DNA from: Bradyrhizobium elkanii USDA 76
GTDB lineage: Bacteria; Pseudomonadota; Alphaproteobacteria; Rhizobiales; Xanthobacteraceae
DNA length: 64,000 nucleotides
Reading direction: 5' to 3'
NCBI RefSeq assembly: GCF_023278185.1
Contig: NZ_CP066357.1
Coordinates: 248,001 to 312,000, forward strand
Shown here one piece after another: positions 48,309 through 64,000 of this stretch. Numbering within the stretch: the first letter of the stretch is position 1; each line of letters opens with the position of its first letter. The position numbers and the translations under genes were made by a program. The notes under the pieces are model-generated. The model worked only from the letters and a program-made list of their open reading frames with translations. It ran no database searches and was not told the origin of the DNA.

Positions 48309-48551
48309 GTGAGTCCTTCGGCTAAAACCTTCACGCCCAAACAGGGTCAATACCTCGCCTTCATCCACCTCTATACGAGGCTGCATCGAAGGCCTCCGAC
48401 AGAAGCCGACATGCAGGAATATTTCCGCGTCAGCCCGCCTTCGGTTCACCAAATGGTACGATCGCTCGAGACAGCAGGCAAAAGATTGCCAAGGATGGCT
48501 CGCAGTATCGAACTCCTCGTCGATCCCAAAACTCTGCCGGAGTTAATCTGA
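48309..48551 (+). CDS. LexA-like winged-helix protein of IS630 element B
   Basis: 80 residues from GTG 48309 (MSPSAKTFTPKQGQYLAFIH…), aligned with MSQKSGARFTEKQGHYLAFI in element A. HTH in RRPPTEADMQEYFRVSPPSV, wing in RLPRMARSIELLVDPKTLP. A start at ATG 48258 would add 17 residues overlapping the transposase start. The two proteins are clearly diverged, so the pairing with this transposase is old. Confidence 0.78.
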   Translation: MSPSAKTFTPKQGQYLAFIHLYTRLHRRPPTEADMQEYFRVSPPSVHQMVRSLETAGKRLPRMARSIELLVDPKTLPELI

Positions 48552-48591
48552 CCGCCCGAACCCAACGCGTCAAAATCACTGTGAAGAGCCA

Positions 48592-48672
48592 CTAGGCGGC
48601 CACTCGCTGCTGGCGGTCCAGCTGATGGAGCGCCTGCGGCAGCTGTCGCTGGCGGTTGTGGCCGTTATCTGA
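48592..48672 (+). pseudogene. NRPS/PKS carrier-domain scar
   Basis: 26 codons reading LGGHSLLAVQLMERLRQLSL… then TGA. LGGHSLLAVQLM is the phosphopantetheine-attachment motif of a peptidyl carrier domain, with the Ser that carries the arm. IS630 element B ends exactly at its first codon (TA of cta). Everything upstream of the Ser region is gone and the tail soon stops. 48673-48997 has no gene. Confidence 0.7.
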
Positions 48673-48997
48673 ACAGTCAAGCTGTCTCACCGGCTGATAG
48701 TGGGTCAGTTTGAATTTCGCCAATGCGCCAGGAATGGACATTCCGCGCGAAGGTTCATGCCGAGGCTTACGCGTGCGGCCTGAGAATGGTCGAGGGCCCT
48801 CCGGCCGCGCGCGGCGGCGGCGTCAGCGACGAAACAGTCGCCGACGAGCGGCATCGAAATTCTCGAATAAGATGTGCCACGCCCGCGGGAACCGGGAATT
48901 TCTCACAACGAGATATACGCCGACGATGGGCAGGCGTCATCTCGGTTGGGCTTCGCCCATCTTCCGCGACGCCGCCGCGATTCAGTTTCTCGGAGGC

Positions 48998-49777
48998 TCA
49001 TCGGATGGTTATATTGCCTCCTGAAGTGACCGCTGAAATATTTCCTCCGGCGCCGCCATGGATCGGGCCATCATAAGACCCTTGATGGTCATAACCGCCT
49101 GGATATAATACGCTATCTATATGCACGTTCCCTCCTGAAGTGCGCGCATGCAACTGGAAGCTCGCCGAATCCGGCACTTGAACCGTTATGGTGCCGCCGT
49201 TTGTCTGGAGCGTCGCGACGGGCTGCGGGTCGAGGAGTTCCACCGCGATATTTCCGCCTGACGTTCGGGCATTGGGTATACTTCCTGAAACAGAATGCAA
49301 ATCGATATTCCCTCCAGAGGTGTTTGCGTTTATTCGACCGCCGACTCTACCGGCCGAACCTACGGTAATTCGTCCGCCACTCGTGTGAAGCGTCAGGTCG
49401 GCGGCTCCCTCGCCGATCTCGATTGCGCCACCGCTGGTCTGTGCATCGACGGTCGCATCAGCCTTATCCAAGGAGATCGAACCGCCGCTCGTCTTGATCG
49501 TCAACGGCGAGTTGGCGGGAACGTCCAGTTGCAGGTCGATGAATGTCGACGGCTGCCGATTTTGTATGCTGCAGTTGATCACAGCATCCCCGCTCGTCTG
49601 GATTTCGACTCTCACGAAGCTGGCGTCTCCGGTCCGCAACCGCCAGCTTACTGTCAGCTCGTTTGTCGGTTTTGAATGAATTGTTATATTTGCCGAAGCC
49701 GCAGGCACGCTGATTTTGGCTCCCTGTGGCAAAGATACGCTTTTCGGCACGTTTTGAGGGACGTTGATGGTCGTCAT
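48998..49777 (-). CDS. DUF4097-type beta-repeat protein in the RiPP locus
   Basis: 259 residues from ATG 49777 with GGAGGT six bases upstream. About nine T-S/N-G-G repeats spaced roughly 20-25 residues apart (IKTSGGSISL, AQTSGGAIEI, LHTSGGRITV, ANTSGGNIDL, ARTSGGNIAV, LQTNGGTITV, ARTSGGNVHI, AVTSGGNITI) predict a right-handed beta-solenoid like DUF4097 putative adhesins. No signal peptide. It follows the radical SAM gene after about 150 bases on the same strand. Role unknown; it might bind or present the modified peptide. Confidence 0.78.
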   Translation of the reverse strand: MTTINVPQNVPKSVSLPQGAKISVPAASANITIHSKPTNELTVSWRLRTGDASFVRVEIQTSGDAVINCSIQNRQPSTFIDLQLDVPANSPLTIKTSGGSISLDKADATVDAQTSGGAIEIGEGAADLTLHTSGGRITVGSAGRVGGRINANTSGGNIDLHSVSGSIPNARTSGGNIAVELLDPQPVATLQTNGGTITVQVPDSASFQLHARTSGGNVHIDSVLYPGGYDHQGSYDGPIHGGAGGNISAVTSGGNITIR

Positions 49778-49931
49778 GATCATACCTCCAAAGATAGAAT
49801 CGACCGACATTTTCTGTTCGACGATATTGTTCGAATATTCGAGGGCGCGTATTCGACCGCCCCCGATCGACATCGACGCCGCGTTCTTCCACCGCTCTCC
49901 TCGAGCGGCCGATAGCCGATCGGACAGCATA

Positions 49932-50855
49932 TCAACTCGACGGAGCCTCGCCCGGCGCCCAATAGGGACATGCTTTCTGCTCTTCATTTCCGGTCATCAA
50001 CCCGCGCGACCAAAATGAGAATTTCTCCGAATCGACCAGTATTCCGCCGTCTTCTCGAATACGGCCGATATCATTGAGCGCGTCGTGAAGACCGACAGTG
50101 CATTTCCCCAGGCGGCCGTCTGGATAAACCAGCAGGTGATTGGGCATGGCCGCGTAACATAACTCCGTGTCGATCCTCCAATGCATCGTGTCCCGAACGA
50201 CTCGATAGAAGGATTCCTCGATCTCGCGGTATGTTCTACGATCGAGCACGGCAAGATCATCATCATTCGTCCCGCCCCACTTGCCGACAGGTCTGATGAA
50301 AGTCTTGAACCGAGGGTCGTCTCCGAAATCCTTCCCGATGTTTTCCGCCAACCGGCCTATATCGTCCGCATTGGTCGGCGAAGCATTGGCACGAATTACG
50401 CCCGTAAAATCTCCGACCGCTTTTCGATAGGAGAGGAGATTTTCATATATGAGGTTGAAGGTCCCGTCGCCGATTTTCGTGTGTCTAGCCTTGTCGTGAG
50501 AGTCTTTCCATCCATCCAGAGTAATCTGGAATTGGACGAGATTCTCATCGAGCAGCTCCTGTAGTTTCGTGAGCGTCAACATTGTTCCGTTCGACGTGAG
50601 CGAATAAGAAAAGGCGCAATTCAACTCTGAATTGTGCGCCATTATTTCTCTCATGCGGTGGAAGGCGAGCATGGGTTCCCCGCCGAAAAACGAAACATCT
50701 ACGCTGTCGTATTTATGCGACAGCACCCCGAAGAAATTTTTTATCAGATCTGCTTGGCGCTCGTCGGAGCCTTTGTACTCGTAGCGTTCGTAACAATAGT
50801 CACAACGTAAATTGCATTTCTCTGTAAGCAGAAGTGTGACGGAAAAACTGCTCAT
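49932..50855 (-). CDS. Radical SAM peptide maturase
   Basis: 307 residues. The CxxxCxxC cluster motif is KCNLRCDYCYE near residue 14; the SAM-binding GGE motif is FFGGEPML. The C-terminal third carries only a few further Cys (ELCYAAMPN, LGKCTVGL, KACPYW), so the SPASM/twitch domain for auxiliary clusters is short. Such enzymes form thioether or C-C cross-links in ribosomal peptides. It lies 115 bases downstream of the candidate precursor on the same strand. No transporter or protease is next to it. Confidence 0.87.
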   Translation of the reverse strand: MSSFSVTLLLTEKCNLRCDYCYERYEYKGSDERQADLIKNFFGVLSHKYDSVDVSFFGGEPMLAFHRMREIMAHNSELNCAFSYSLTSNGTMLTLTKLQELLDENLVQFQITLDGWKDSHDKARHTKIGDGTFNLIYENLLSYRKAVGDFTGVIRANASPTNADDIGRLAENIGKDFGDDPRFKTFIRPVGKWGGTNDDDLAVLDRRTYREIEESFYRVVRDTMHWRIDTELCYAAMPNHLLVYPDGRLGKCTVGLHDALNDIGRIREDGGILVDSEKFSFWSRGLMTGNEEQKACPYWAPGEAPSS

Positions 50856-50969
50856 TATCGTTTTCCGACACGAATCTCATAGTTGAGAATAATAGAAGGC
50901 TTGCGCTTGCAAGCCTTCCGCCTTACGATGAATTAAAGCGCTTTTTAGCTGCTGCACTCGCAGCCGCCG

Positions 50970-51152
50970 TTAGTTGCACTGGCAGCCGCCATTGTTATCT
51001 GCAGCGCGCCCCCCGCGGCGTACTTCGCCAATAGATTCTTTCACATGTTCTGCGAATTTTTTGTCTTTTATGATTATTTCTCCCTTCGGATCGATCGTGA
51101 TCCAGTCGACTGGGATTTTATTGAGGTCGATCTTGTTTTCCGAGGTAGCCAT
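50970..51152 (-). CDS. Candidate RiPP precursor peptide
   Basis: 60 residues from ATG 51152 with GGGAG upstream. The leader is charged and regular (IDLNKIPVDWITIDPKG, EIIIKDKKFAEHVKESIGEV), then a basic RRGGR stretch and a short C-terminal ADNNGGCQCN. The two Cys are the only ones in the peptide. Directly after the stop, in the next frame, lies a second copy of the motif (TNGGCECSS-stop, ending at 50945), so the original core may have carried two repeats and been shortened by a one-base change. Modification by the adjacent radical SAM enzyme is inferred from position and composition. Confidence 0.72.
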   Translation of the reverse strand: MATSENKIDLNKIPVDWITIDPKGEIIIKDKKFAEHVKESIGEVRRGGRAADNNGGCQCN

Positions 51153-51645
51153 TTGTAACTCCCTATTGTGAATTTCCCGATAATGCGCGTCCAAAACGCA
51201 GGTGTAATTTATGCGTTCGATGGAACATCGTAGGCTCATGCACCGAAGCGTGCTACTACCTGAATCGAGGGGGATCGGAGCTACGTTGGGATTCCGTGCA
51301 ATCCGATCCTTGGGGTGCCAGCAAGGATCCTCGTAATGGTAGGTCGAGACGTCGATAGAGTGGGTCAAGGATATGCTTCTCGATTTGAAAAAAAGCGATT
51401 GACGACGCAAACGTCAAAACTCACGCCGAGACATCAAGAGATAAGGCGGAGGAGTGCAAGCCGCTCAAGCAACAAACACTTCGGTCGCGCGAGCTTGAGC
51501 GCACGCGGCGAATTGGATCGATAGGAAGCGAATAGCCTATCAAGTTAGCCGAGATTAGTCAGACTTTATCACTTTTTGGGCAACCCGTGGGCAACCACGC
51601 AGTTATTATTAGCAAAGGCGATACGGCAAAGGTGATGAAGCATAG
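51153..51645. other. Upstream region of the RiPP locus, no gene seen
   Basis: Must contain the precursor promoter. No open frame with a ribosome site was found. Near 51577-51596 there is a direct repeat tgggcaacccgtgggcaacc. Confidence 0.4.
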
Positions 51646-51675
51646 CGCAAAAGCCGCCATATGGCGGCTTTTGCG
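51646..51675. terminator. Perfect 30-bp palindrome, probable bidirectional terminator
   Basis: Arms cgcaaaagccgccat and atggcggcttttgcg meet without a loop (51646-51660 and 51661-51675). The GC stem edged by A/T runs (aaaa and tttt) fits a bidirectional intrinsic terminator. It separates the RiPP locus from the small-gene group to its right. Confidence 0.65.
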
Positions 51676-51713
51676 TGAAAGAGACCAAAACTGGCGGCCG
51701 AGTAAGTGAGCCC

Positions 51714-51926
51714 TCATCGACCACGTTGCGGAGACGGAGCTATCGCAGTTCGGCGAGACGATTGGCCGGAACGCCAAAGCACGGCAACCGTGTTGGTCTG
51801 CAATCTTGCCTCGCCAAACCGTCCGACAAACTCCACTTGCGCTTGGTTGCCGAGATCGAGAAGTGCAGCACGAAGCGCAGACACTTTGAAGAGCGATGCG
51901 ACTTCATCATCGACGGCGAACGTCAT
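51714..51926 (-). CDS. Small unknown protein
   Basis: 70 residues (MTFAVDDEVASLFKVSALRA…), start overlapping the stop of the next upstream gene by four bases (ATGA), typical of a coupled pair. The C-terminal third is Arg/Ser-rich and may be out-of-gene sequence. Unrecognised. Confidence 0.4.
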   Translation of the reverse strand: MTFAVDDEVASLFKVSALRAALLDLGNQAQVEFVGRFGEARLQTNTVAVLWRSGQSSRRTAIAPSPQRGR

Positions 51927-52235
51927 TTTGACAACACCTTCCTGTCCGCCTCGAACGCTTCCTGATCTTTCGGGTCTGCAAGCTTAAACCAAGAGCCGGG
52001 TGCATACGTGGCGATAAGCTTGGCAAAGAACGATTGTGGCTCCCAATCTTGCCCTTCACGCTTCTCGAGAATAATGATTCCGTCGCGGGTGAAATAACTA
52101 GGTGCGGGAACATTGCAGTCGACCGAAAGCTCGACGCGCCACAGCCCGCCCATTGACCCGTCACGTCGTTCGACCGAAGCATTTTGTTCTCGGGTTGACC
52201 AGGCGAACGGAGCCTGATGCCCCTGCAATTCCATC
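51923..52235 (-). CDS. Unknown protein, start uncertain
   Basis: About 103 residues from Met at 52235 (MELQGHQAPFAWSTREQNAS…), up to 161 if the frame starts at 52408. The C-terminal half (GIIILEKREGQDWEPQSFFA, KLIATYAPGSWFKLADPKDQ) looks well ordered. The longer version would overlap the gene on the other strand, so I use the short one. No family recognised. Confidence 0.45.
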
Positions 52236-52249
52236 GCGCTGTCGAAGAC

Positions 52250-52465
52250 ATGGAAATATGGAGTGCGAGCAGCGACGGCTATTCGTTCGTGATCAGCTTC
52301 CAGAGCCCGACTGGTCATGGCTTTCGCGGAAGGTTGGGCTACGTCGCCTCCTGGCGTCCGCTTCACCAGAGCCGTGGCTCGATACGGATTCTCGGCTCGC
52401 CGCTTCAAAGCTTCGCTGAGGCCGAGAATGCGTGCAACCGCATGTTGAACTACCTCCGAGACTGA
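52250..52465 (+). CDS. Unknown small protein
   Basis: 71 residues from ATG 52250 (MEIWSASSDGYSFVISFQSP) with a beta-rich first half and a closing helix (FAEAENACNRMLNYLRD). It is divergent from the gene at 51923, with about 15 bases between starts. Function unknown. 52466-52670 has no gene. Confidence 0.5.
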   Translation: MEIWSASSDGYSFVISFQSPTGHGFRGRLGYVASWRPLHQSRGSIRILGSPLQSFAEAENACNRMLNYLRD

Positions 52466-52670
52466 ACTGATTTCCTATCGCTGAAACGTTAGAGCCTCTC
52501 CAAAATGCCGCAGTCGCTCCGAGTACCACCCAGGATATTCGACGAACCTCACCGCTCACTCATTATGTAAAGCAAGTATAGGCGTTGGAGTATATGCTGC
52601 AGCCGATGCGGACGAAGTTGATCTTTAAGATACGGCATTCGGAATGATGCGTGGTGTACAATGAGAGGAG

Positions 52671-52991
52671 ACAGCTTGAAGATGAGCACGACTGCGAGGA
52701 AGCTGAGGCGATTGCCGCGGCACTTTACCTCAGGCCCGATGAACTAAATCAAATCGAGTATACGATACACGAGATCGCAACGACGACGGGCTGGTTTACG
52801 GATACGGCGTAGAGATCAAAGAAGGAGCCCCGCGGCACATCCTCGACAAGCTTGCGCCGCTGCCCAGGCGGGGGCAACTTAGTGCTGAACCATTTGCAGG
52901 GATACGCCCAGGACGCAGATCAAGAGCAAATGGAAATGGAGATGGCCAGGACCACCGTTTACAAAGTGAAGCTCTACAACATCGCTACGGA
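52671..52991 (+). pseudogene. Small unknown gene, frameshifted
   Basis: One frame reads LEDEHDCEEAEAIAAALYLR, PDELNQIEY up to about 52762; the sensible continuation is in another frame (DGLVYGYGVEIKEGAPRHIL, DKLAPLPRRGQL). Together they look like one small acidic protein with a frame change near 52770. No start assigned, no family recognised. Confidence 0.35.
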
Positions 52992-53145
52992 TGAAGTGGT
53001 TATCTCTCGACGCATGGCCACCTACGAGGGGGCAGCCAAGATGGGAGGGTGGCCGGTTGAAGGCACGGGCCATGTAATTGACCTAGCTGACCTAGAACCC
53101 GGAGAGGAATGGACACCTCGCGATTTCGATCCGACCAAGACATGA
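52930..53145 (+). CDS. Unknown small protein
   Basis: 71 residues: MEMEMARTTVYKVKLYNIAT, then EVVISRRMATYEGAAKMGGW and an acidic end (EPGEEWTPRDFDPTKT). It overlaps the start of the next gene by 37 bases. Predicted small alpha/beta protein; unrecognised. Confidence 0.5.
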   Translation: MEMEMARTTVYKVKLYNIATDEVVISRRMATYEGAAKMGGWPVEGTGHVIDLADLEPGEEWTPRDFDPTKT

Positions 53146-53306
53146 CGGTGCTCACGACTGAGCATCCGCTCATTTGGCTAACGAAGGACTTTGTCCTCCG
53201 GAACACTGTTCCGACTGGTGTCCTCGAACGCATGTTGGCGCTTGATCAGAAGCAGCATCAGCGAGGACCAAACGTCTATTCGCTGCGTCTACTGTATAGC
53301 CCACTA

Positions 53307-54846
53307 GTCCGCCGTGAAGAACGCGGACGAGCGCTGATTTAAGCGATCTTTTGTGGCAGGACGGTTTCAGCCAACGCCCGGATGATGACGCGCAAAAGCT
53401 CTGCGAGCCATCGTAGGAGCAGGCCGAAGTTGTAGCCGGCAGCGGCGAGGACGGCGTTGATGCGGTCGCCGAGGCGTCCCTTGAGATAGTTTCGATCCAT
53501 GCGGTGCTCGGCCTTGATGTGGCCGATGACGGGCTCGACAGCCGCGCGACGCTTTATCTCGCGACGGATGGAAGCCGTGACGCGACGAACCTGACCAGAG
53601 ATCCAGACCCTGAACCGATGCGGGTGGTTGTGACCGCGGTACCCTTTGTCGACGTGGATGCGACGAGCCTCCACGCCGGTCAGCTTCTCCATGTCGGCGA
53701 TCACGGGGCCGAGCGTGTGGCCGTCGAAGGGATTGCCGTGCAGCGCTTTGGCATGGAGCACGAACTGTCCGCCCTTCGGAGACGTCACGGGGGTGGCGAT
53801 ACTGATCTTGCAGCCGAACTCGTAAGGCGCGCGGGCTTTGCCTTTGCCGATGCACTCGACCTCCGGCGCATGTAATGCATAGACCTTGGGGCCGCGCTGA
53901 TGCTGATCCTGGCTGCGCACCTGCTGCGCTAAACCGAGCAGCGGGCCGAAGCGAGCTTCCAGCACCGCATCGCCATCAATCTTGCGGCGGATGTCGCGGA
54001 TGATCCGGCCAAGCCGTGTCCGCAGGAACTTGAGCTGGCGCCGGGCGCGTTTGAACTGGTGGGCGTGGGTATAGCGGCCAGACCATGATGGCGGCGCGCT
54101 TGGCCAGGCGCAGATAGCTCTGGCGCAGCGGCACACGGTTGCGCTTGGCGAGCCCGACGAGCTTGATGATGGCCCGATGCATCAGCCGCGCGTCGGTCGG
54201 GTGCGCAACTGCCTTGGGCTGCACCGTGGTATCGACCACCACCCGCTCCAGGTCCTTAGGGCCGATGGCGCCAGTCTTGTGCGCCACCGACAGACTTTCC
54301 TGGATGAGCGCGACGAGTTGCTCCTCGCCGAGCCGCTGGCGCCAGCGTGTCATCGACGATCGATCGAACGGCAAACGGTGGCAGAAGCTCAACTCGCCAC
54401 AGAAGTATTGGTAGTAGGGATTCTCAATCCACCGGGCGCACAGCGCCTCATCTGACAGATTGTGCATGTGCTTCAGGATGAACAGGCCGGCGACAAGCCG
54501 CGTCGGCAGGCCTGGCTGCCCCGGACCGGCCTGGCACACCGAACCAAAGCGGTCATCCAGAAACTTCCAGTCGATCAGCGCCGCCAACCGCACCAGCGGG
54601 TGGCCCATGTCGAGGATTTGATCAAGCGCCGGAAGCAACAGGTCCTTCTGGCGATCGTCCCGCGGTTTGCTCATCGCCGTTCCCAATGCCGATGACCCGC
54701 GGTCAGGGAATCACGAATCGCGCGAAAGCAAAATCCCAAAACGCAAGAATGCGCGGCCCGACACCCGGCTTTCCTGCAAAATCGAATACTTTATCGAGAC
54801 AACTTCTGCCTATCTCTCAGGCCGATCTGCATTCTTCACGAACGAC
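53307..54846 (-). mobile_element. IS5-type element, copy B (1540 bp)
   Basis: Ends as in copy A (GTCGTTCGTGAAGAA / GTCCGCCGTGAAGAA), 6-bp target repeat CCACTA at 53301-53306 and 54847-54852. Full length but transposase frameshifted. Confidence 0.92.
53339..54674 (-). pseudogene. IS5-type transposase, single frameshift
   Basis: From ATG 54674 (MSKPRDDRQKDLLLPALDQI) the frame is good to LAKRAAIMV at about 54085; then one extra base (gtctggccgc) puts the rest (GRYTHAHQFKRARRQLKFLR to ALAETVLPQKIA) in another frame. Catalytic parts: D in VVVDTTVQPKA, D in HVDKGYRGHNH, E in EPVIGHIKAEHRM. Removing one base would restore an apparently active protein. Confidence 0.9.
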
Positions 54847-55240
54847 CCACTAAGGCCCTCCACTTGCGACGCTGACCCACAGTGGCAGGTAAACTCCTTA
54901 ATCCACCCTCTCGGATGATGATCTGCCGCTCATCGCGCCCGATGAGGACCGAACGACAACACTAACGCCCGATATTGATGCGGCATGTGACCATTGGCCT
55001 ATTGACGCGCGCCGAATCGGTTCCTCGAATTCCGGAACCTGCGCGGCGTAACGCTCCCAGCGATCTTAGAACACTGATCCCAGAAGCGTCCGATTGTGAG
55101 ACTTTTCCAGCCACGCAGGCAGTCCCCCTCTTTATCAGGGCTCTTCCAATCGTGGTGACGTGATAAGCCTTGCCCCCATCAGGCCGCGTCAGCAACTGCT
55201 AATGAGGCTGGGGGCCGGCCTTAGAACAAAGGCAAGTTCG

Positions 55241-56923
55241 TCATTTTGGTTTCGCTTTGACGTTGGTCCACAGCAGACCCTCGCACCATATGTGTTCGAC
55301 GCGTCCCCACTGGCACGCCGCTGCGGTATCCGGAAAAAACCCCCTTCCATGGAGGTTGGCGCTTGTATTGCAAAGCAGCGGGATGCCCGTGAGCCTTTCA
55401 TATTCGACGAGAAGCTCAGCCACTGCATGCTGAGAGGTTCTGGGAATCGTCTGCAATCGCGCAGACCCGTCGAGGTGAACAACAGCAGGAATTTTGTTAC
55501 GCCAATCAACCCGCGTCTCGTGATCGAAAAGCATGTAAGGGTCGGGCGTTCCAGGACTGAAAATGTCCGGCGCACGGTCCTCCAAACATATAGGAGCCAC
55601 CGGCCGGAAGTGTTCTCGAAGCTTGAGGTCGTTGAGATAGTCCTTCATTCCCGCCGAGGTCGCCGCTGCGAGAATGCTTCTGCCACCCAACGCCCGTGGT
55701 CCCAACTCGGCACGTCCGGCAAGGAAGACCACGGGCTTGTCAGCCGCGAGAATGATTGCCAATTCGCGCAAGCTGCACGGCGCCGCTTTCCACCCGCGCG
55801 GCACATCACCCCGTTTCAGCGCGGGGCCGCTGTAGACGGACCACTCCAACGGTCCGAAGAAGCCATTGTGCGCTGCCAACGCGGAACAAGCGGCGCCGAC
55901 TGCTGAGCCACTGTCATTGGGAAACGGGGGCACCCAGACGGCCTTGAACAAGCCTGTTGCACGCAGTGCACTGTTCCACTTGATGTTCAGACCACAACCG
56001 CCGACTATGCACAAATTCCGTGGTCCCGCAACGAACGAATGCCGCTGCAGAGCATTCTCGATTTCTCGCACGAGCAGACGCTCGACGAAGCAATGAAACG
56101 ATGCAAGCACATCTTCTGGTGGTTTGGCTTTGAACCGCAACGCGCTGGCCTCGAAGAAATCATGCACAGCGGAAATCGCCGATTCCATACCGTTGACATC
56201 CACACAGTGAGCAAGCTCCGCATGGTCGCCAAAGCGCTTCTCGTATTCCTCCCGAAACACCTCCACAATGTCTTTGTCCGCCGACCCAAGCGCAATGTAG
56301 GCCATTATCTTGCCCGCAATTGCCCGGTCGCCCCAACCACCGCGATTTGCCCTCATATACGGCCCAAAGTGCTGGCTCGCCGCAGGATAGGCATGCCCAA
56401 TCATCGGGAATAGGTATTCGAGGAACTGGGCTCCGCCGCGCTCAATATGATAGAGCCGTGGAAACATGGCGCCGTCCCAAACCAGACAGAATGCCGGTTC
56501 GCCTGTTTTGGCAAAGGGGCTGGTGCAGTATGCGGAGGCCATATGTCCCGTGACATGCGGATAGCTCTTGTAAGGGAAGGCCCTGCCGTCAAGCATCAGG
56601 CCAAAGGCGTCGCACGAGGTGAGGGGGTGGTCAGCATGGCGTTCGAGATATGGCGCCCCTTTGAGCGTGATGGGCGCCGTACCGCTGATGATCTCCAACC
56701 GCGACTCTTCTCGCCCGATCCAGCCGTCGACGACGAACTCATCGACGTCTCGCGCATCGAGGCCATACTCCGCCAGAGCAACGACAATTGCATCGAGGTT
56801 ATCGATTTTTTGATACCGAGGATTATTGCCCCGTTTTTCCTCTTCAACGCAAAAGACAAGCCGTCCATCCTCGACTAGAGCGACTGCCCCGTCATGAGTC
56901 AGCTTTATACCGCAGATGCGCAT
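55241..56923 (-). CDS. O-carbamoyltransferase (NodU/CmcH family)
   Basis: 560 residues, full family length. The N-terminal Kae1-like ATPase-fold domain begins ICGIKLTHDGAVALVEDGRL; it contains HVTGHMASAYCTSPF (metal-binding His) and GGCGLNIKWNSAL. The C-terminal domain has ELGPRALGGRSILA and PLLCNTSANLHGRGF. The enzyme moves a carbamoyl group from carbamoyl phosphate to a hydroxyl, as in Nod factors, cephamycin or novobiocin-type antibiotics. No nod genes are seen here. Its nearest biosynthetic neighbours are the S66/AsnRS-like genes on the other side of an IS630, so a secondary metabolite is as likely a substrate. Confidence 0.92.
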   Translation of the reverse strand: MRICGIKLTHDGAVALVEDGRLVFCVEEEKRGNNPRYQKIDNLDAIVVALAEYGLDARDVDEFVVDGWIGREESRLEIISGTAPITLKGAPYLERHADHPLTSCDAFGLMLDGRAFPYKSYPHVTGHMASAYCTSPFAKTGEPAFCLVWDGAMFPRLYHIERGGAQFLEYLFPMIGHAYPAASQHFGPYMRANRGGWGDRAIAGKIMAYIALGSADKDIVEVFREEYEKRFGDHAELAHCVDVNGMESAISAVHDFFEASALRFKAKPPEDVLASFHCFVERLLVREIENALQRHSFVAGPRNLCIVGGCGLNIKWNSALRATGLFKAVWVPPFPNDSGSAVGAACSALAAHNGFFGPLEWSVYSGPALKRGDVPRGWKAAPCSLRELAIILAADKPVVFLAGRAELGPRALGGRSILAAATSAGMKDYLNDLKLREHFRPVAPICLEDRAPDIFSPGTPDPYMLFDHETRVDWRNKIPAVVHLDGSARLQTIPRTSQHAVAELLVEYERLTGIPLLCNTSANLHGRGFFPDTAAACQWGRVEHIWCEGLLWTNVKAKPK

Positions 56924-56991
56924 GATCCCACCAAATTGTTTGACCTCGAAGGGTCAGCTTCGAACGAGGAACTCTCGCCGGCAAGTCCCTA

Positions 56992-58145
56992 GTGTTCTGT
57001 CACTGACATTTGAATCCCAGCTTGTCGCGAACATGATTCACTCGCGGCATGGGAAACGACTTGATTGGACTTGATCGCAAGGCTCGCAGGGAACTGGAGC
57101 AACTGCTCACCGATGGGAACACGGCTCAGAAAATCGCCAAGCGAGCGAGGATCGTGCTGATGACGGCGGACGGTCATGGCGTCGTGGCGATGATGCGTGA
57201 GGTCGGGGTTTCGAAAACCACCGTCTGGCGTTGGCAGGACTACTTTGCCGAGGCCGGTGTCGATGGTCTGATCAAAGGCCGCTCCAAGCCGCCTGGCCGA
57301 AAGCCGCTCAGCGCTGCCATGAAGCTCAAGGTCGTCGAGAAGACCGTGAAGGAACGTCCCGCCAATGCCACGCACTGGAGCGTGCGATCGATGGCGGAAG
57401 AAATGGGCATCAGCCACACGAGCGTGCAGCGCATCTGGGCCGAGCACGGCCTCAAGCCGCATCTCGTGCGCAGCTTCAAGATCTCCAACGATCCCGACTT
57501 CGTCGCGAAGGTCGAGGATATCGTCGGCCTTTACGTCGATCCGCCGGAGAAGGCCCTGGTGCTCTCCGTCGATGAGAAGAGCCAAATCCAGGCACTCGAC
57601 CGCACGCAGCCGGGTTTGCCCTTGAAAAAGGGCCGTGCCGGCACGATGACCCATGATTACAAGCGCAACGGCACCACAACACTCTTCGCCGCGCTCGATG
57701 TGGCGGCCGGTACCGTCATCGGCGAATGTCTGGCACGCCATCGGGCAGACGAGTTCCTGTCGTTCCTGAAAACAATCGACCGCGAGACGCCTGCACATCT
57801 CGATCTGCATCTGATCCTCGACAACTACGCCACCCACAAGACGCCGGCCGTGAAGCGCTGGTTGGCGCGACACAAACGCTTCACGCTGCACTTCACGCCG
57901 ACATCCAGTTCCTGGCTCAACCTCGTCGAGCGGCTGTTCGCCGAAATCACTCGCCAGCGTATCCGGCGAGGAACCTTCAACGACGTCACCGAACTCAAAA
58001 CCGCGATTGACGAGTGGATCGAGCATCGAAACCAAAACCCAAAGCCATTCAAATGGACCGCCAGCGCCAAGTCCATCCTCGCAAAGCACCGCCGAGCCAA
58101 AAACGCGCTCGCCATAGCGGGATGCAAATGAATGAGTCAGAACAC
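56992..58145 (+). mobile_element. IS630-family element C
   Basis: Ends GTGTTCTGTCACTGACATTTG and, in complement, GTGTTCTGACTCATTCATTTG (first 20 bases of each considered); TA at 56990-56991 and 58146-58147. It has no winged-helix gene, unlike elements A and B. It sits in the gap between carbamoyltransferase and peptidase genes. Confidence 0.92.
57049..58131 (+). CDS. IS630-family transposase
   Basis: 360 residues. HTH (AQKIAKRARIVLMTADGHGV, MREVGVSKTTVWRWQDYFAE), D in VLSVDEKSQIQALDRTQ, D in LILDNYATHKTPAVKRWL and E in SWLNLVERLFAEITRQ. Intact; the stop lies just before the right end. Confidence 0.95.
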   Translation: MGNDLIGLDRKARRELEQLLTDGNTAQKIAKRARIVLMTADGHGVVAMMREVGVSKTTVWRWQDYFAEAGVDGLIKGRSKPPGRKPLSAAMKLKVVEKTVKERPANATHWSVRSMAEEMGISHTSVQRIWAEHGLKPHLVRSFKISNDPDFVAKVEDIVGLYVDPPEKALVLSVDEKSQIQALDRTQPGLPLKKGRAGTMTHDYKRNGTTTLFAALDVAAGTVIGECLARHRADEFLSFLKTIDRETPAHLDLHLILDNYATHKTPAVKRWLARHKRFTLHFTPTSSSWLNLVERLFAEITRQRIRRGTFNDVTELKTAIDEWIEHRNQNPKPFKWTASAKSILAKHRRAKNALAIAGCK

Positions 58146-58883
58146 TAGCATCTGCCGACAATTCGGTGTCGATGGAGCACGCATTCCGCATAGCGAAGAT
58201 CACCGCGTCAGCGGCGCGACCGAATAAGGAAGCACAAACACCGATGCGAAGAATTGCGGCGACCTGCACACGACCGGGAGCGCATTATGAACATTCCTTC
58301 GGGGAACGGCAGCCGGAGCCTGTCGTAGTCGGCCGCACTCAAGCGGCGAAATCGTCGGCCCGCGATATACAGGTTGACAACTTGAATTCGATCCATGTTG
58401 AAGCTCACGAATTTTCGCCCAACCTAGCGGGCACGACCAGACCTTAGACGATGCGGAACTCTGAGGGGCGAAACAGCAGCCTCCGGTTCGCGGTCCGGAC
58501 GATCGAATCACGAACAAGGCCGTTTCGTTTCGCCCTGATTGGTGGGGTGACAGTCACAGCAATGCTGTCGACAGCCTAATTGTCCAGAAACTTACCTCCG
58601 ATCGCCTGTCGCCGTCGAGTGCCGGAGGTCCTAGCCTCCTAGCTTTGGCAGGCTCCCTGATTTGAGAGTTGCTGTGGACCTACGCTTAAATCTATTCCTA
58701 CATGCGGCCGACATGAACTCCGAGGCGCCCTCGATTCGGTCGAGGTACTAGCCGATTCTTGGGTGCCGCTTTTGCAGACCAAGAGCTGCGGCGGCGCCAT
58801 CGCGAACTCTGGAAGTGCTCCAGCACGCCAGCTAAAACGACGATTGCGCAATCGACTAAGGTGATAAACGGAAGTGATCGCCG
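58146..58883. other. Intergenic stretch before the S66 peptidase gene
   Basis: No convincing gene. A 66-codon minus-strand frame (58208-58408) starts with a protein-like piece (VVNLYIAGRRFRRLSAADYD) but lacks a recognisable family or ribosome site. The promoter of the peptidase operon should lie in the last 200 bases, which I could not define. Confidence 0.4.
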
Positions 58884-59879
58884 ATGAGCGCATCCCATGC
58901 AACGTATCCGCCCCGCCTTGTTCAAGGCGCGCATTTACGCGTTGTAGCGCCGTCACGCAGTCTGAGCTTTATCACTCCGAGCGTCAGAGACAGGGCGACG
59001 CAATTCCTAAAATCACACGGAATGCACGTCAGTTTTGGACGGCACGCGGCCGAAATGGATAGCTTTCAGTCAACATCGGTCGCCGCTCGAGTCAGCGACC
59101 TTCATGAAGCGTTTCTTGATGACTCTGTAACGGTTATCCTGAGCGCCATTGGCGGATACAATAGCAATCAACTCCTACGCCATATCAATTTCACATTAAT
59201 CGAAAGACATCCAAAGATCATATGCGGATTTTCCGACACAACGACTCTTACGAATTCAATTCTCGCGCAAGCAGGCCTAGTGACGTATTCCGGACCGCAC
59301 TTCTCAACGTGGGGCATGAAATACGGACTTGAGTTTAGCGCAGAGAATTTCCTGACGTGCTGCATGGGGAGTGAGCCGTTTGAGCTGCTCGCCTCTCCCG
59401 AATGGAGCGACGACGACTGGTACATTGATCAGGAGAATCGGAAATGGCTACCGAATGAAGGCTACTGGGTTCTTAATCCGGGTGTTGCCCATGGACGGCT
59501 CGTGGGCGGGCACTGTCGTTCACTGAACGCACTGCAGGGGAGCGACTATTGGCCAAGTCTTCTCGGCAGCATCGTTTGCCTTGAAGAAACTGCCGACATC
59601 ACCCCGCGACATTTCGACAGGCAACTCCAATCCCTGATCTTGCAGCCGGATTTTGAAGGCGTCCGAGGAGTACTGATCGGCAGGTTTCAAGCGGCAAGCG
59701 GAATGTCAAGATCCATTCTAAAGCGCATCGTGGCGAATAAAGCCGAGCTCAAAGGCATTCCGGTTGTGGCCAATCTGGGTTTCGGCCACACAAGCCCAAT
59801 TGTGACACTTCCGATTGGAGGAGAAGCCAGGATCATTGCAGAAGACGATACACCACGAATCTGGATCGACAAACATTAG
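58884..59879 (+). CDS. S66 peptidase, LD-carboxypeptidase / MccF type
   Basis: 331 residues. The S66 catalytic triad is visible: nucleophilic Ser in ICGFSDTTTLTNSI, Glu in IVCLEETADITPRHF and His in NLGFGHTSPIVTLPIGG. The start of the fold is LRVVAPSRSLSFITP. S66 includes cell-wall LD-carboxypeptidases and MccF, which cleaves the amide of microcin C-type aminoacyl nucleotides to give self-immunity. The Trp/Tyr-rich middle loop (NRKWLPNEGYWVLNPG) recalls the nucleotide-stacking loop of MccF-like members. It is followed after 17 bases by an aminoacyl-tRNA-synthetase-like gene, which favours the MccF interpretation. Confidence 0.88.
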   Translation: MSASHATYPPRLVQGAHLRVVAPSRSLSFITPSVRDRATQFLKSHGMHVSFGRHAAEMDSFQSTSVAARVSDLHEAFLDDSVTVILSAIGGYNSNQLLRHINFTLIERHPKIICGFSDTTTLTNSILAQAGLVTYSGPHFSTWGMKYGLEFSAENFLTCCMGSEPFELLASPEWSDDDWYIDQENRKWLPNEGYWVLNPGVAHGRLVGGHCRSLNALQGSDYWPSLLGSIVCLEETADITPRHFDRQLQSLILQPDFEGVRGVLIGRFQAASGMSRSILKRIVANKAELKGIPVVANLGFGHTSPIVTLPIGGEARIIAEDDTPRIWIDKH

Positions 59880-59896
59880 CGAGAAGGAGAGGCGAG

Positions 59897-61015
59897 ATGT
59901 TCGATAGCCACTTCGAAGCCGCCATTCTGCGGGATGATGCATCGTATCGTCTTCAGGAGCGGTCGCTCTTCTCGATGCCCGTGTACAATCCCTCAACTCA
60001 CTATATTGATCTGACGCGCAACAAATACTTCCACGCTCTGCTCACCCTTCGCCATTACGTTCGCGCCGTGTCTGACTACTACTTCTCGGTCATGCACGAA
60101 GGGCGAAACATAGATTTGTTTATGCTAACACCCAGCATATCGTCGCCAATGGGGGCCGGCTCAGACTCGGAGGCAATTGCTATCAAGTTTGGCGAACTCG
60201 ATTCATATCTTGTCGATTCCTCTCAGTTCGGGTTCGAACCGCTCCTCTTGAACGGCATGCCGATGGTCTATTGCTACCTCCCATCTATGAGAGGGGAAGA
60301 TGCCGATAGTAGGCACCTAAACCAATTCTTCCACTGTGAGGCCGAGATCCGCGGGAGCATTGGTCAATTGTTCCCGCTGATAGAAGGCTACATAAAGGCA
60401 CTATGTCGTGCATTGAGTTTGATGAACAACATCGTCGAGAAGATTAGTACGAATCCGAAACAGACCAGGAATGCTATCAACTCCATCACTGCGGCGGCGG
60501 CATTTCCTCGCGTTTCCTTCGATCAGGCGTGCGAACTTCTCCGCGAGCACGGAGGAAAGGGAATTACTGAACTGGCCACGCATCGCCGAACAATTACAGC
60601 CGAAGGTGAGATGCGGCTAGCCGATCTCTTGAAGCTAGATACTCCTTTCTGGATAACCAACTATGATCGAGACCAAGTACCGTTTTATCTAAAGCCCGAT
60701 CGCCGGCACCCGGAAAAAGCGATCAACGCAGACCTTATCTTCCCGCCCCTCGATGGTGGATGTTTTGGTGGTGAGATTGTGGGATGTGGCGAGCGCCAGG
60801 ACGCCGCGGACGAGTTGATCGAATCGCTCGCGAGGCAAGGCATATGTCCTAGACCATATGAATGGTACATCGAACTAAGACGGCAGCCAAACTACTCTAC
60901 TACGTCCGGCTTTGGCTTAGGGATAGAGAGATTTCTAGCCTGGGCCCTCTGCCGGACGAACATTCGGGATGTGATTGCCTACCCAAGACTGAAGAATATT
61001 ATGACGTACCCCTAG
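59897..61015 (+). CDS. Asparaginyl-tRNA-synthetase-like enzyme without anticodon-binding domain
   Basis: 372 residues, only the class II catalytic core. Motif 2 region: RHLNQFFHCEAEI (compare RHLAEFWMIEPE in AsnRS); motif 3: GFGLGIERFLAWALCRTNIR followed by DVIAYPR (compare GFGLGFERLVMYVTG…NIRDVIPFPR). The N-terminal OB-fold that reads the anticodon is missing, so tRNA charging is unlikely. Such free-standing cores activate amino acids or carboxylates as adenylates, as in asparagine synthetase A-type enzymes and AgnA of the agrocin 84 cluster. Ribosome site GAGAAGGAGAGG just upstream. Co-transcribed with the S66 peptidase. Confidence 0.87.
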   Translation: MFDSHFEAAILRDDASYRLQERSLFSMPVYNPSTHYIDLTRNKYFHALLTLRHYVRAVSDYYFSVMHEGRNIDLFMLTPSISSPMGAGSDSEAIAIKFGELDSYLVDSSQFGFEPLLLNGMPMVYCYLPSMRGEDADSRHLNQFFHCEAEIRGSIGQLFPLIEGYIKALCRALSLMNNIVEKISTNPKQTRNAINSITAAAAFPRVSFDQACELLREHGGKGITELATHRRTITAEGEMRLADLLKLDTPFWITNYDRDQVPFYLKPDRRHPEKAINADLIFPPLDGGCFGGEIVGCGERQDAADELIESLARQGICPRPYEWYIELRRQPNYSTTSGFGLGIERFLAWALCRTNIRDVIAYPRLKNIMTYP

Positions 61016-61249
61016 GAGATCACCAGTTACGCGCGCGCGACTGTTGCGCGTCTGGTGTCAGCGGCCCGAAGCGATCATCCAGAAAATTGACAAGAGTCGC
61101 GACGGAGCCGCGTCTCGGCCAGGCCGCCCTAAGAGCTTAAACTCGTCGCCCCTCGACAACTGGCCAGCTTTGAGGGCGCAGCCGTGATCGCAAATTAGCC
61201 GTTGACTGTTGGAAACAGCCAAAATCAGGAATGTCATGCGTTATAGGTG

Positions 61250-61888
61250 ATGAACTTGTCGAAAGCGTCGGATATCCAGGCAATCATATTTGATCTTTCA
61301 GAGGTTCTCTTGCACGGCCTGCTCGGACTTCATGAGCGGCTCGGCAGGAGTGTCGGCGTGTCTTCGAGCAGGCTCGAATTGCAGATTCCTGAACTTAAAG
61401 CCCTTTTCGAAGGACGCATCAGCGAGCAAGACTATTGGTCGGCGCTAATTGATAAGCACTGCTGGACCATAAGCTCAGAGGAGCTTCACAACCTCGTACG
61501 TGAGGGTTTTCGGGAAATCCCCGGCACACGATCGATAATTCATGAGCTTCGACGATCCGGCTATCGGATAGGCTTGCTATCCGTTCATGCCCGGGAATGG
61601 ATCAGCTATTGCGAAGAGAAATTCTCATTTCGAGAGCTGTTTGACGAGATCAGCTACTCGTTCGAAACTGACACATGCAAGCCCGCCCCCCAGTCTTTTG
61701 TCATGATCCTTGAACGGCTGAGATGTCGGCCTCAGGAGGCTCTTTTCATTGACGATATGCCGGCAAATCTCGATGCAGCCTCTATGATTGGAATGCACAC
61801 CCTTCAATTTTTTTCAGCTGCGCGGCTGCGGCGTGACCTGCACTTATTCGGGATAGCGCTCCCGTCCGCGAGAACTCGCCATGACTAA
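61250..61888 (+). CDS. HAD-superfamily phosphatase-like protein
   Basis: About 212 residues, subfamily IA-like. Motif I is IIFDLSEVLLHG (nucleophile Asp; the second Asp is replaced by Ser, as Gly/Asn replaces it in YihX-type members), motif II GLLSVHARE, motif III Lys in TCKPAPQS and motif IV LFIDDMPANL. It may dephosphorylate a sugar or nucleotide intermediate. Starts GTG-ATG at 61247/61250. It overlaps the methyltransferase gene by eight bases. The 61016-61246 gap has no gene. Confidence 0.85.
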   Translation: MNLSKASDIQAIIFDLSEVLLHGLLGLHERLGRSVGVSSSRLELQIPELKALFEGRISEQDYWSALIDKHCWTISSEELHNLVREGFREIPGTRSIIHELRRSGYRIGLLSVHAREWISYCEEKFSFRELFDEISYSFETDTCKPAPQSFVMILERLRCRPQEALFIDDMPANLDAASMIGMHTLQFFSAARLRRDLHLFGIALPSARTRHD

Positions 61889-62669
61889 ACTCGATGACAT
61901 CAGACATCTCGTTGAGCAGGAGAATTTATTCTGGAGTGCTCAGTTTCAAAAGGAGGCTGCAAGGGATAAAAAGAACCCAGTCAACTTCTCATCAGATTGG
62001 TGGCGGCTCTATTATAGGGAGATAACAGACCACATAGGGCACATTCTCAAACTTCGATCCGATCCCTATGTCTTGGAGGCGGGAAGTGGATCTGGAAAAG
62101 CGTCTCTACTGTTATCATCGAATATGAGGCGAGTGTTGCTAGATATATCGCCGAGCGCTCTGCGATTCGCAAAATATCTCGCCGAGCGGTTTGGATGCCA
62201 AAATGTTGATTTCATTCAAGGCGACTTATTCAAGCTCCCTTTTGAGGAGCGGTCATTCGACCTCACATGGAATATTGGTGTACTAGAGCACTATCACCCT
62301 GAAGCAGCCCTGCAGATCTTGAAGGAAATGTCCCGAGTTACAGTTGATGGTGGCTATCTCGCCGTCGGAGTGCCGAACTTCGGAGCCTTTGCGATCCAAA
62401 AAGCTCGTACGCTGCGATCTCCTATTCTGCACTTCGTTCCTGGCTATCGATTGGGCACCGAGAGACCCTATACGCCGCCGCAACTAATCGAGCTTATTGA
62501 AGGGGCATGTCATCTTGAGGGACGCTCCGTTAAGAGCACAGAGATTGTCAATTTTGGAAATCCGCTGCCGATGGGATCACCTGCTTGGCTGCTGAGATCG
62601 CTCGGACCTGCGGCGGAGCGGCGATGGCCCCATCGGAAGTTTCTCATCGTAGCCATTTCGAGACTATAG
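61881..62669 (+). CDS. Class I SAM-dependent methyltransferase
   Basis: 262 residues. SAM-binding motif I VLEAGSGSGKASLLL, motif II LLDISPSALRFAKYLAERFG, and the acidic DLFKLPFEERSFDLTW followed by NIGVLEHYHPEAALQIL, typical of methyltransferase 11/25-type small-molecule enzymes. Start at ATG 61881 inside the HAD gene. Target unknown; in this neighbourhood a nucleoside, sugar or amino-acid moiety is plausible. Last gene of the candidate antibiotic cluster; 62670-62784 holds no gene. Confidence 0.88.
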   Translation: MTKLDDIRHLVEQENLFWSAQFQKEAARDKKNPVNFSSDWWRLYYREITDHIGHILKLRSDPYVLEAGSGSGKASLLLSSNMRRVLLDISPSALRFAKYLAERFGCQNVDFIQGDLFKLPFEERSFDLTWNIGVLEHYHPEAALQILKEMSRVTVDGGYLAVGVPNFGAFAIQKARTLRSPILHFVPGYRLGTERPYTPPQLIELIEGACHLEGRSVKSTEIVNFGNPLPMGSPAWLLRSLGPAAERRWPHRKFLIVAISRL

Positions 62670-62784
62670 ATGCCAGGCCAAGGCTCAGGACCTTGCCAGA
62701 CATGGTGATGTGAGGCTGACCTGCCACTGAGTATTTCCTCCAGAAGGAGTTAGAGTCCGCCCCGAAGTGTAGCGAGACCGAACT

Positions 62785-63498
62785 TTGGACCACCCAGAAC
62801 TAGAGTTTTGCGCCGCTGTCACGTTGGCGGGCTGGTCGCGCCGACGTGGGTTTGCAGCAAAATCGGCGGTCGATTGCCGATCGCCCTATGGGGCCGTTCT
62901 TCGTTATACAACAAGGCTCAAGAACGCCCACAGGACCGTTCTTCGCGAGGTTTTTTATCGACATCATCCCTGGTTTGGTCTCCGAGTTTGCGTTCATGGA
63001 AGGGTCGAGAAGGCTGATGATGTCGCTTTCCGCTGCTCTCTTGATGGATCGCAAACAGATCGTTGCCTGGAAGTTCCAGCGTGGATGTTCGACCGGACGG
63101 CATGCCCTGACGCTGAGCCTTTGACAGCTCAGCCGTTTGTCAGCATTGACGCACTTGCGGCGCTCTCTACGCTTCTCGATCTGGCGTTGAAGGATCGAAC
63201 GCCATTAGCTGCCCTGCTTTCTGGCGCATCCAGAGCCTCTCACGACCAGAATCGGGGAGAGACTCATGTCACGGCAGACGGCAGTGCCAGCGAGCGGATA
63301 CCGACACAATCGACAACCGCGGCCGCAGCAGCAGATGGATCTGTTCGGGAGTGGCCTATCGAACGGCGCCATCGGCGCGCCCACATGGCTGGATCTGCCC
63401 GCAGAAGCGCGGGCAGCGCTCACGAGCCTGATGACGCAGTTGATCCTCGACCATGCAGCGATGACAGCGACGCCGCCCGCGAAGGAGGTCGATCATGA
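62785..63498 (+). CDS. Accessory protein of a serine-recombinase operon, start uncertain
   Basis: The middle (HPWFGLRVCVHGRVEKADDV, FRCSLDGSQTDRCLEVPAWM, FDRTACPDAEP, FVSIDALAALSTLLDL) matches the small protein found upstream of large serine recombinases in rhizobia. The first ~45 codons from TTG 62785 do not look like the family, and the last ~75 codons overlap the next gene in another frame, so both ends may be altered. Function unknown. Confidence 0.55.
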   Translation: MDHPELEFCAAVTLAGWSRRRGFAAKSAVDCRSPYGAVLRYTTRLKNAHRTVLREVFYRHHPWFGLRVCVHGRVEKADDVAFRCSLDGSQTDRCLEVPAWMFDRTACPDAEPLTAQPFVSIDALAALSTLLDLALKDRTPLAALLSGASRASHDQNRGETHVTADGSASERIPTQSTTAAAAADGSVREWPIERRHRRAHMAGSARRSAGSAHEPDDAVDPRPCSDDSDAAREGGRS

Positions 63499-63505
63499 TC
63501 TCTGA
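63266..63505 (+). CDS. Second accessory protein of the recombinase operon
   Basis: 79 residues (MSRQTAVPASGYRHNRQPRP…) with a well-formed helical end (PTWLDLPAEARAALTSLMTQ, LILDHAA). It ends four codons inside the recombinase gene (overlap about 11 bases), as in intact three-gene operons of this type. Role unknown. Confidence 0.65.
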   Translation: MSRQTAVPASGYRHNRQPRPQQQMDLFGSGLSNGAIGAPTWLDLPAEARAALTSLMTQLILDHAAMTATPPAKEVDHDL

Positions 63506-63710
63506 CAAGGTCAGGCCTCATCATCTGGAGCGCAAGGCGATTCTTTACGTGCGTCAGTCTTCGGCCCATCAGGTGTTGCACAATCGCGAGATCGGCGCGC
63601 TCCAATACGCCATGCGAGACCGGCTGACGGCACTCGGGTGGTCCGAGATTGAAGTGATCGATGATGATCTCGGTCGTTCAGCCGCCGGCGGCATTCCCGG
63701 TGTGGACGTA
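63495..63710 (+). pseudogene. Large serine recombinase, N-terminal fragment
   Basis: Begins MISDKVRPHHLERKAILYVR and has the catalytic serine region YVRQSSAHQVLHNRE, then VIDDDLGRSAAGG. Similarity to the family ends near 63705; the frame then runs into the NYN-domain gene. Only about 70 of more than 500 residues remain, so it cannot recombine DNA. Confidence 0.82.
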
Positions 63711-63755
63711 ATTTCGCTCAGCTATAATTTCGCACTTCGCTCGGAAACGGCAGCC

Positions 63756-64000
63756 ATGTCACCTTCTGCCACTAACAAGATCGCGCTCTTCATCGATGGG
63801 GCCAATCTCTACGCGACGGCGAAAACTCTGGGCTTCGACATCGACTACAAGCGCCTGCTGAAGGAATTTCAGAGTCGCGGGACGCTGTTGCGGGCGTTCT
63901 ACTACACCGCGATCATCGAGGATCAGGAATACTCCTCGATCCGCCCGCTGATCGACTAGCTGGACTACAACGGCTACACGGTCGTCACCAAGGCGACCAA
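63756..64000 (+). pseudogene. NYN-domain (LabA/DUF88) protein with in-frame TAG, runs off the window
   Basis: Starts MSPSATNKIALFIDGANLYA (first metal-binding Asp in FIDGANL), continues TLGFDIDYKRLLKEFQSRGT. A TAG at 63957-63959 interrupts …RPLID-stop-LDYNGYTVVTKAT; beyond it the same frame continues with typical family sequence to the window end, so TGG (Trp) has probably become TAG. NYN proteins are PIN-like nucleases. If the stop is real, the product is 67 residues. Confidence 0.8.

Follow-up and report, generated by a model that had tools for sequence, protein, structure and literature searches.

A plasmid-borne cassette of Bradyrhizobium elkanii with an asparaginyl-tRNA synthetase-like core and an MccF-like peptidase, probably related to the agrocin 84 cluster

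We analysed a 64,000-nucleotide stretch of Bradyrhizobium elkanii USDA 76, hereafter the window, which corresponds to positions 248001-312000 of contig C2 (NZ_CP066357.1) in a genome of 9.5 Mb and two contigs, C1 and C2. Four co-directional genes on the plus strand (window positions 58884-62669) form a cassette that, on balance, is probably a mobile, reduced member of a pathway family pairing a ligase derived from asparaginyl-tRNA synthetase (AsnRS) with an MccF-type peptidase, related to the agrocin 84 cluster. The cassette codes for an MccF-like serine peptidase of family S66 (58884-59879; PF02016/PF17676), an AsnRS-like catalytic core of 372 amino acids (aa) (59897-61015; PF00152), a HAD-IA phosphatase (61247-61888; PF13419) and a class I S-adenosylmethionine (SAM) methyltransferase (61881-62669; PF13649/PF08241). 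A gap of 17 bp separates the first two genes, about 230 bp lie ahead of the HAD gene, whose start is annotated by RefSeq in plasmid pS05J at the equivalent of window position 61256, and the last two genes overlap by 8 bp. An earlier sequence-only reading had noted these four genes and an O-carbamoyltransferase gene on the opposite strand, and all five were confirmed at their positions. Sequence comparison establishes which genes are present, that the catalytic residues are kept, that ligase, peptidase and methyltransferase recur as a set in other bacteria and that some genes are common to agrocin-type clusters.

The AsnRS-like protein contains a single Pfam domain, PF00152, at residues 35-365 of its 372, too wide a span for an anticodon-binding domain to fit as well, in line with what had been proposed for this class II core. 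Two alignments, one of 7 out of 8 AsnRS-like proteins (Pantoea was left out, its start being uncertain) and one of 26 of the 120 relatives described below, showed that R132 and E134 of motif 2 and R300 and R345 of motif 3 are invariant. The adenylate-binding residues are retained, and the fold is kept as well. It shares 31% identity with AgnA of agrocin 84, itself described as an AsnRS core without anticodon domain in the excerpted text of PMC4392301. Archaeal asparagine synthetase A (AsnA) is also among the closest known systems; scores on the asparagine synthetase A NCBIfam PRK06462 were 63-126 bits, under the cut-offs of 309-389. The paper PMC13060819 was judged unrelated, its enzyme being, in the part consulted, of the glutamine-using, AsnB type.

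A protein search with the AsnRS-like sequence gave 1534 proteins at E<=0.001, ordinary AsnRS no doubt among them. The best 120 of these 1534 comprised the query, a protein of Bradyrhizobium sp. Pa8 (85% identity), one at 66% and the rest at 55-64%, all with at least 55% identity across at least 93% of the query; organism labels among them were few (six patescibacterial lineages, one Bradyrhizobium, the others just 'bacterium'). The window protein has the family motifs SSPxGxGS[DN]S and DSSQFGFEP and the family length of about 372 aa. With the family profile, 398 genomes of the phylum gave 18 matches at E<=1e-30; 17 of them span about 265-275 residues inside frames of 465-524 residues, the size of an ordinary AsnRS, so that among these genomes the family proper occurs in the source genome only. 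A tree of 55 rows included 10 of the 120 listed proteins and 36 of 38 AsnRS-cluster members (L047 and L053 were too short), four longer AsnRS-type frames among them. It joined the window protein, that of Bradyrhizobium sp. Pa8 and the 66% protein (support 100/96) and nested this trio among its relatives (94/89), outside but beside the AgnA-like group (98/94), in a topology with many open forks and a long-branch warning from the program.

The best matches of the S66 peptidase among sequences in the PDB were Lmo1638 and BA_5613 (331-336 bits, E about 1e-98), the latter labelled by its depositors both 'MccF-like' and 'LD-carboxypeptidase family'; a literature search by title and abstract start found no functional study of either. 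The MccF proteins scored 108-129 bits (E 1e-30 to 1e-36) and the murein tetrapeptide carboxypeptidases 58-61 bits, a ranking that agrees with the earlier assignment to the MccF type. In NCBIfam, a murein enzyme, PRK11253, was the sole match, and its score of 93.8 bits is far under the cut-off of 378. The residues S117, E234 and H302, which we take to be the catalytic triad, are all present, and identity with AgnC5 of agrocin 84 is 32%. This peptidase is the only PF02016 match in the whole genome, which argues against a housekeeping murein role.

The pairing of the two genes was then followed outside Bradyrhizobium. A scan of genome contigs with two peptide patterns taken from relatives gave 69 pattern matches, corresponding to 34 loci, each considered with up to 8 kb on either side of the AsnRS-like gene. 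By title, 26 loci belong to patescibacterial lineages, 5 to unspecified bacteria and 3 to others (a Calothrix plasmid and two metagenome-assembled genomes, of Gammaproteobacteria and Desulfurellales), with the reservation that titles of metagenome-assembled genomes may mislead through mis-binning. An S66 gene was near the AsnRS-like gene in 31 of the 34 loci, and 27 of these 31 have both genes on one strand, so the conserved neighbourhood expected for the pair does exist elsewhere. It was missing from L036 and L051 (contig ends close on one side) and from L039. At 11386-12180 of L039, an S51 peptidase (PF03575, 160 bits) adjoins an AlaRS-like core and an agrocin-type methyltransferase. Our search of titles and abstract starts found no report of AgnA-like clusters in Patescibacteria. 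Two observations were made on these neighbourhoods. The plasmid2 of the cyanobacterium Calothrix parasitica NIES-267 carries methyltransferase, AlaRS-like, S66 and AsnRS-like genes at 4958-9068 of L030. Radical SAM genes lie near the clusters of L039 (9079-10209) and L052 (11023-11931), both by Pfam, and of L031 (9195-10106, by eye), and AgnC7 of agrocin is also a radical SAM protein.

A second truncated class II aminoacyl-tRNA synthetase (aaRS) core was frequent in these loci, present in 22 of 34, and not universal. It was of about 375 aa and alanyl-tRNA synthetase (AlaRS)-like in 12 loci, of about 380 aa and histidyl-tRNA synthetase (HisRS)-like in 10, and never both. The AlaRS-like assignment comes from profile matches to AlaRS structures (6e-8), with precomputed PF01411 labels in 18 of 120 listed relatives. 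Within a set of 7 sequences, the AlaRS-like profile (10 of the 12 proteins aligned; L032 and L043 out) matched the AlaRS-related proteins of Exiguobacterium and Peribacillus at 1e-25 and 9e-19 and the ordinary AlaRS of the same clusters at 6e-17 and 3e-14. The AlaRS-like protein in L048 had no Pfam match and scored 20 bits only in NCBIfam, so that its placement is by profile. The HisRS-like core (9 of 10 aligned; L026, short, out) was placed by fold only, with a model of pLDDT 68 and a Foldseek E of 7e-10; searches of Pfam and of PDB sequences gave nothing for it but two chance-level matches to other proteins. Of the 11 loci with an S66 nearest to the window's (E<1e-80), 10 carry the AlaRS-like core, as do 2 of the remaining 23. 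A link between this core and the AsnRS-like gene is also seen in contig sizes: 25 of the 118 listed AlaRS-like matches share their exact longest-contig size with a listed AsnRS-like match, where 118 shifted controls averaged 1.0 and reached at most 4. On the minus strand of L043 (9841-11919), AlaRS-like core and S66 are fused in one protein of 692 aa.

Methyltransferases of families 2, 6 or 7 occurred in 29 of the 34 loci. The window protein belongs to family 6 (profile E 8e-82 in a set of 10 sequences), which was present in 9 loci. Family 7, the full-length methyltransferase of agrocin-type clusters, was present in 7; in the same set, its profile matched the proteins of K84, Peribacillus, Exiguobacterium, Xenorhabdus and Streptomyces sp. 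NBC_01707 with E of 5e-71 to 4e-92 and the other five at 2e-11 or weaker. The HAD phosphatase is the least conserved member of the cassette. Its nearest relatives are at 84% (Bradyrhizobium sp. Pa8) and then 55% identity, and these two share their longest-contig sizes (9,542,277 and 7,390) with the AsnRS-like relatives P0002 and P0003; over the 120 listed, 6 sizes were shared, weak as a count next to shifted controls (mean 1.0, maximum 5). In L025, an HD-domain hydrolase adjoins the methyltransferase in place of the HAD protein.

Among known systems, the agrocin 84 cluster on pAgK84 of Rhizobium rhizogenes (Agrobacterium) K84 holds agnA, an adjoining methyltransferase gene, the leucyl-tRNA synthetase (LeuRS) gene agnB2 and the S66 gene agnC5. 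The cassette resembles it in its S66 peptidase and SAM methyltransferase and, as far as homology and active-site residues go, in its AsnRS core, and both are borne by a conjugative plasmid of a plant-associated alphaproteobacterium. Unlike the agrocin 84 cluster, the cassette has four genes only, lacks a LeuRS and includes a HAD phosphatase; its AsnRS-like protein stands outside the AgnA group in the tree and its methyltransferase is of another family. Clusters of AgnA-like type are also present on plasmids from Peribacillus, Exiguobacterium, Xenorhabdus and Streptomyces sp. NBC_01707, and all four combine an AsnRS-like core with a class I methyltransferase. They differ from the cassette by a second aaRS core, AlaRS-like in Peribacillus and Exiguobacterium and prolyl-tRNA synthetase (ProRS)-like in Xenorhabdus and Streptomyces sp. 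NBC_01707, by an extra AlaRS or LeuRS in three and by a major facilitator superfamily (MFS) transporter in all four; the Exiguobacterium and Peribacillus plasmids also carry a separate AlaRS of 595 aa and an MFS transporter. The Streptomyces sp. NBC_01707 locus (L057, 13179-22888) contains AsnRS-like and methyltransferase genes, FAD and molybdopterin subunits, a ProRS-like core, S66 and a P450, with genes of hydroxylase type in the set. Phosmidosine is a proline N-acyl-phosphoramidate of 8-oxoadenosine, and this gene set could fit a phosmidosine-type cluster; no paper on a phosmidosine gene cluster was found by title and abstract start.

The cassette has a peptidase of the MccF-type family in common with the microcin C (mcc) operons, and the same substrate bond is expected; a ThiF-like MccB was not found among the ten proteins scanned. 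According to the excerpt of PMC9239234, one and the same carboxamide bond of aminoacyl-nucleotides is the reported target of MccF and of MccG, a peptidase of family S51. A functional analogy for the AlaRS-like core in the fuller clusters is offered by AcmF of ascamycin biosynthesis, itself AlaRS-like, which, by the partial description in PMC12945691, takes alanine from Ala-tRNA and transfers it to a nucleoside sulfamate. The comparison with AcmF is by description only; AcmF differs in its use of Ala-tRNA and its tRNA-recognition domain, and no AlaRS-like core was found in the source genome.

From the bond cleavage ascribed to MccF and MccG, the S51 peptidase that stands in place of S66 in L039 and the activity ascribed to AcmF, as far as these partial sources go, we infer the following scheme. 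The AsnRS-like enzyme would activate aspartate or asparagine with ATP to give an acyl-adenylate or an N-acyl-phosphoramidate nucleotide, and the methyltransferase and the HAD phosphatase would tailor the nucleotide conjugate. The S66 peptidase would hydrolyse the aminoacyl-nucleotide amide bond, either for self-immunity or to release a nucleotide phosphoramide. Where a cluster is fuller, its second aaRS core (AlaRS-, ProRS- or HisRS-like) may load a further amino acid and so set the target of a resulting aaRS inhibitor. Since no AlaRS-like core was found in Bradyrhizobium, the product there may carry aspartate or asparagine only, or else the cassette may modify or detoxify such compounds from neighbours. 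The product is putative, as is its being a toxin.

Several observations weigh against the cassette being a member of such a pathway family, and some concern missing partners. No AlaRS-like core was found in the source genome by single sequence or profile, in searches run without a positive control. The AlaRS-like and HisRS-like profiles found nothing in the window and two plasmid stretches, which was the whole scope of the HisRS-like search, and the same method did find the window methyltransferase. A spare synthetase was sought in the genome with PF01411, PF00587, PF00152 and PF00133 only, and none appeared by number and frame length: PF01411 had one match, PF00587 three, PF00152 three (one being the cassette gene), and PF00133 matched nine pieces that fall into six frames, a single one of which (903 aa) has, judged by length only, the size of a LeuRS. 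Within these four families, a self-immunity aaRS such as the LeuRS AgnB2 was likewise not found. There is no transporter or exporter in the cassette and none annotated within 14 kb in pS05J, for which the table is incomplete. Other points concern relatives. S66 is on the strand opposite to the AsnRS-like gene in 4 of the 31 loci, the HisRS-like gene in 7 of 10. S51-like reading frames also occur in L027 and L037, both of which have S66. Relatives of the HAD protein were detected by phmmer in 2 of the 34 loci (L031, E 5.7e-42; L044, E 2.9e-9), and the window methyltransferase scores 31 bits on the agrocin-type profile, a distant likeness only. S66 is present in three of the four AgnA-like plasmid clusters and not among the genes shown for Exiguobacterium; no annotated S66 was found near the AsnRS-like gene in the stretches of the Pantoea, Streptomyces changanensis and Streptomyces sp. 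NBC_00829 plasmids, so the pairing is not universal. Given that no AlaRS-like core, no spare synthetase in the four families and no exporter in the cassette was found, the cassette may make a simpler product, serve detoxification only or be a remnant.

Other explanations were therefore weighed. The cassette could produce an aminoacylated nucleotide, a cofactor or a signal that acts inside the cell, mainly in Patescibacteria, and have been acquired by Bradyrhizobium. The best 120 of the 1534 AsnRS-like relatives, with no less than 55% identity across 93% or more of the query, look as if under constraint, 26 loci are titled patescibacterial and the cassette has no transporter; patescibacterial genomes are moreover reduced and poor in secondary metabolism. 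Such a non-antibiotic role is nevertheless unlikely, as the methyltransferase and the AlaRS-like core are common to clusters that have a separate synthetase and a transporter, and the distribution in the host group is patchy, with a close copy in 1 of 265 genomes of the genus, the source itself.

Still less likely is a role in detoxification only, in which S66 would cleave, and the HAD phosphatase dephosphorylate, aminoacyl-nucleotide antibiotics of neighbours, the AsnRS-like protein and the methyltransferase modifying the released parts. The missing partners (AlaRS-like core, spare synthetase in the four families, exporter) would fit it, as would carriage by conjugative plasmids, MccF- and MccG-type peptidases being known to give resistance according to the excerpt of PMC9239234. 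A ligase with intact active-site residues would however be superfluous in such a role, and ligase, S66 and methyltransferase stay together in other bacteria. That the cassette is a non-functional remnant of a larger cluster, hitch-hiking on the plasmid in Bradyrhizobium, would agree with the AlaRS-like core, present in 10 of the 11 loci with the closest S66, not having been found here, and with a plasmid rich in insertion sequences. We regard it as quite improbable, as the window and 3 plasmid records have all four reading frames uninterrupted, the catalytic residues are kept and Bradyrhizobium sp. Pa8 has full-length relatives of the AsnRS-like (85%) and HAD (84%) proteins. A chance meeting of a murein LD-carboxypeptidase with a stray asparagine synthetase A-like gene, for which only the far sub-threshold PRK11253 match speaks, is hardly credible for a pair kept in 31 of 34 loci, whose peptidase is the sole PF02016 match of the genome and ranks MccF above the murein enzymes.

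The reading of the cassette as a mobile, reduced relative of the agrocin 84 pathway is in keeping with its plasmid context. The B. elkanii plasmid pS05J is 100% identical to window positions 44741-64000 bar one insertion, and the B. barranii plasmid pBb323S2a is 99.76-99.96% identical to parts of the same interval; both are typed conjugative. The four-gene stretch was found at 99.9-100% identity in 3 of 72,556 plasmid records, all Bradyrhizobium. Among the 265 Bradyrhizobium genomes, two others besides the source gave weak matches. The G+C content of the cassette genes (50-53%, against 59% for the window) is lower than that of their surroundings, which fits acquisition from elsewhere. A scan of viral contigs for phage carriage gave 47 pattern matches, none of which encodes a relative.

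The carbamoyltransferase gene upstream (55241-56923, minus strand) is nodU, which codes for the nodulation O-carbamoyltransferase: the protein scored 1062 bits on the NodU equivalog NF041651, with a cut-off of 1000. Four copies in the genome exceed this cut-off, of which C1 carries three and C2 one. An IS630 element (about 56993-58144, plus strand; transposase reading frame 57049-58131, NF033545 275 bits) separates nodU from the cassette; it has a duplicated CTAG and is missing from pS05J and pBb323S2a. We therefore rejected the carbamoyltransferase as a pathway member, being one of four NodU copies, divergent and now separated by IS630; NodU is probably a neighbour unrelated to the cassette. 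With this, and with no AlaRS-like core and, in the four Pfam families, no spare synthetase found, the suggestion of a carbamoylated, methylated aminoacyl-nucleotide toxin was not supported. Control of the cassette by a nod box was also rejected, as the window gave 0 matches to a partial consensus with up to 3 mismatches and none to a looser pattern, patterns which a divergent nod box could escape. In L056 (Andersenbacteria), a carbon-nitrogen hydrolase and a carbamoyltransferase (10269-12819) lie between methyltransferase and S66; this carbamoyltransferase has 158 bits only on the NodU model, and, from its place inside an AsnRS-like, methyltransferase and S66 set, such a combination may occur in general. 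Elsewhere in the window (48998-51152, minus strand), a radical SAM protein, a 60-aa peptide ending in GGCQCN and a DUF4097 protein form a possible small cluster for a ribosomally synthesised and post-translationally modified peptide; the best NCBIfam match of the radical SAM protein was a ranthipeptide maturase, with 109 bits against a cut-off of 340.

The core of the sequence-only reading, an agrocin-related AsnRS-like/S66 system, is thus partly upheld and takes a broader form, as a sister branch that is mostly patescibacterial, without the carbamoyltransferase and, in the tree, outside the AgnA group. The comparison of sequences partly supports such a system, with Patescibacteria as its main home as far as sampled. 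We advance more tentatively, as a proposal with somewhat less than an even chance, that Patescibacteria widely combine, in compact clusters, two truncated class II aaRSs (one AsnRS-like, the other AlaRS- or HisRS-like), a methyltransferase and an MccF/MccG-type peptidase to make aaRS inhibitors of aminoacyl-nucleotide kind, with agrocin 84 as a sister pathway and a reduced member on plasmids of soybean-associated Bradyrhizobium. If so, the class of nucleotide antibiotics to which agrocin 84 and microcin C belong would reach into Patescibacteria as an overlooked family of compounds, and the retention of aaRS paralogues next to an MccF-type peptidase in cells of reduced genome would have an explanation open to test. 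Such clusters could then be sought by a simple rule, an AsnRS core together with a methyltransferase and an S66 or S51 peptidase, and the second aaRS core would indicate which amino acid is used and thereby which target is hit. In Bradyrhizobium, the cassette would offer a small and cultivable entry point to this family.

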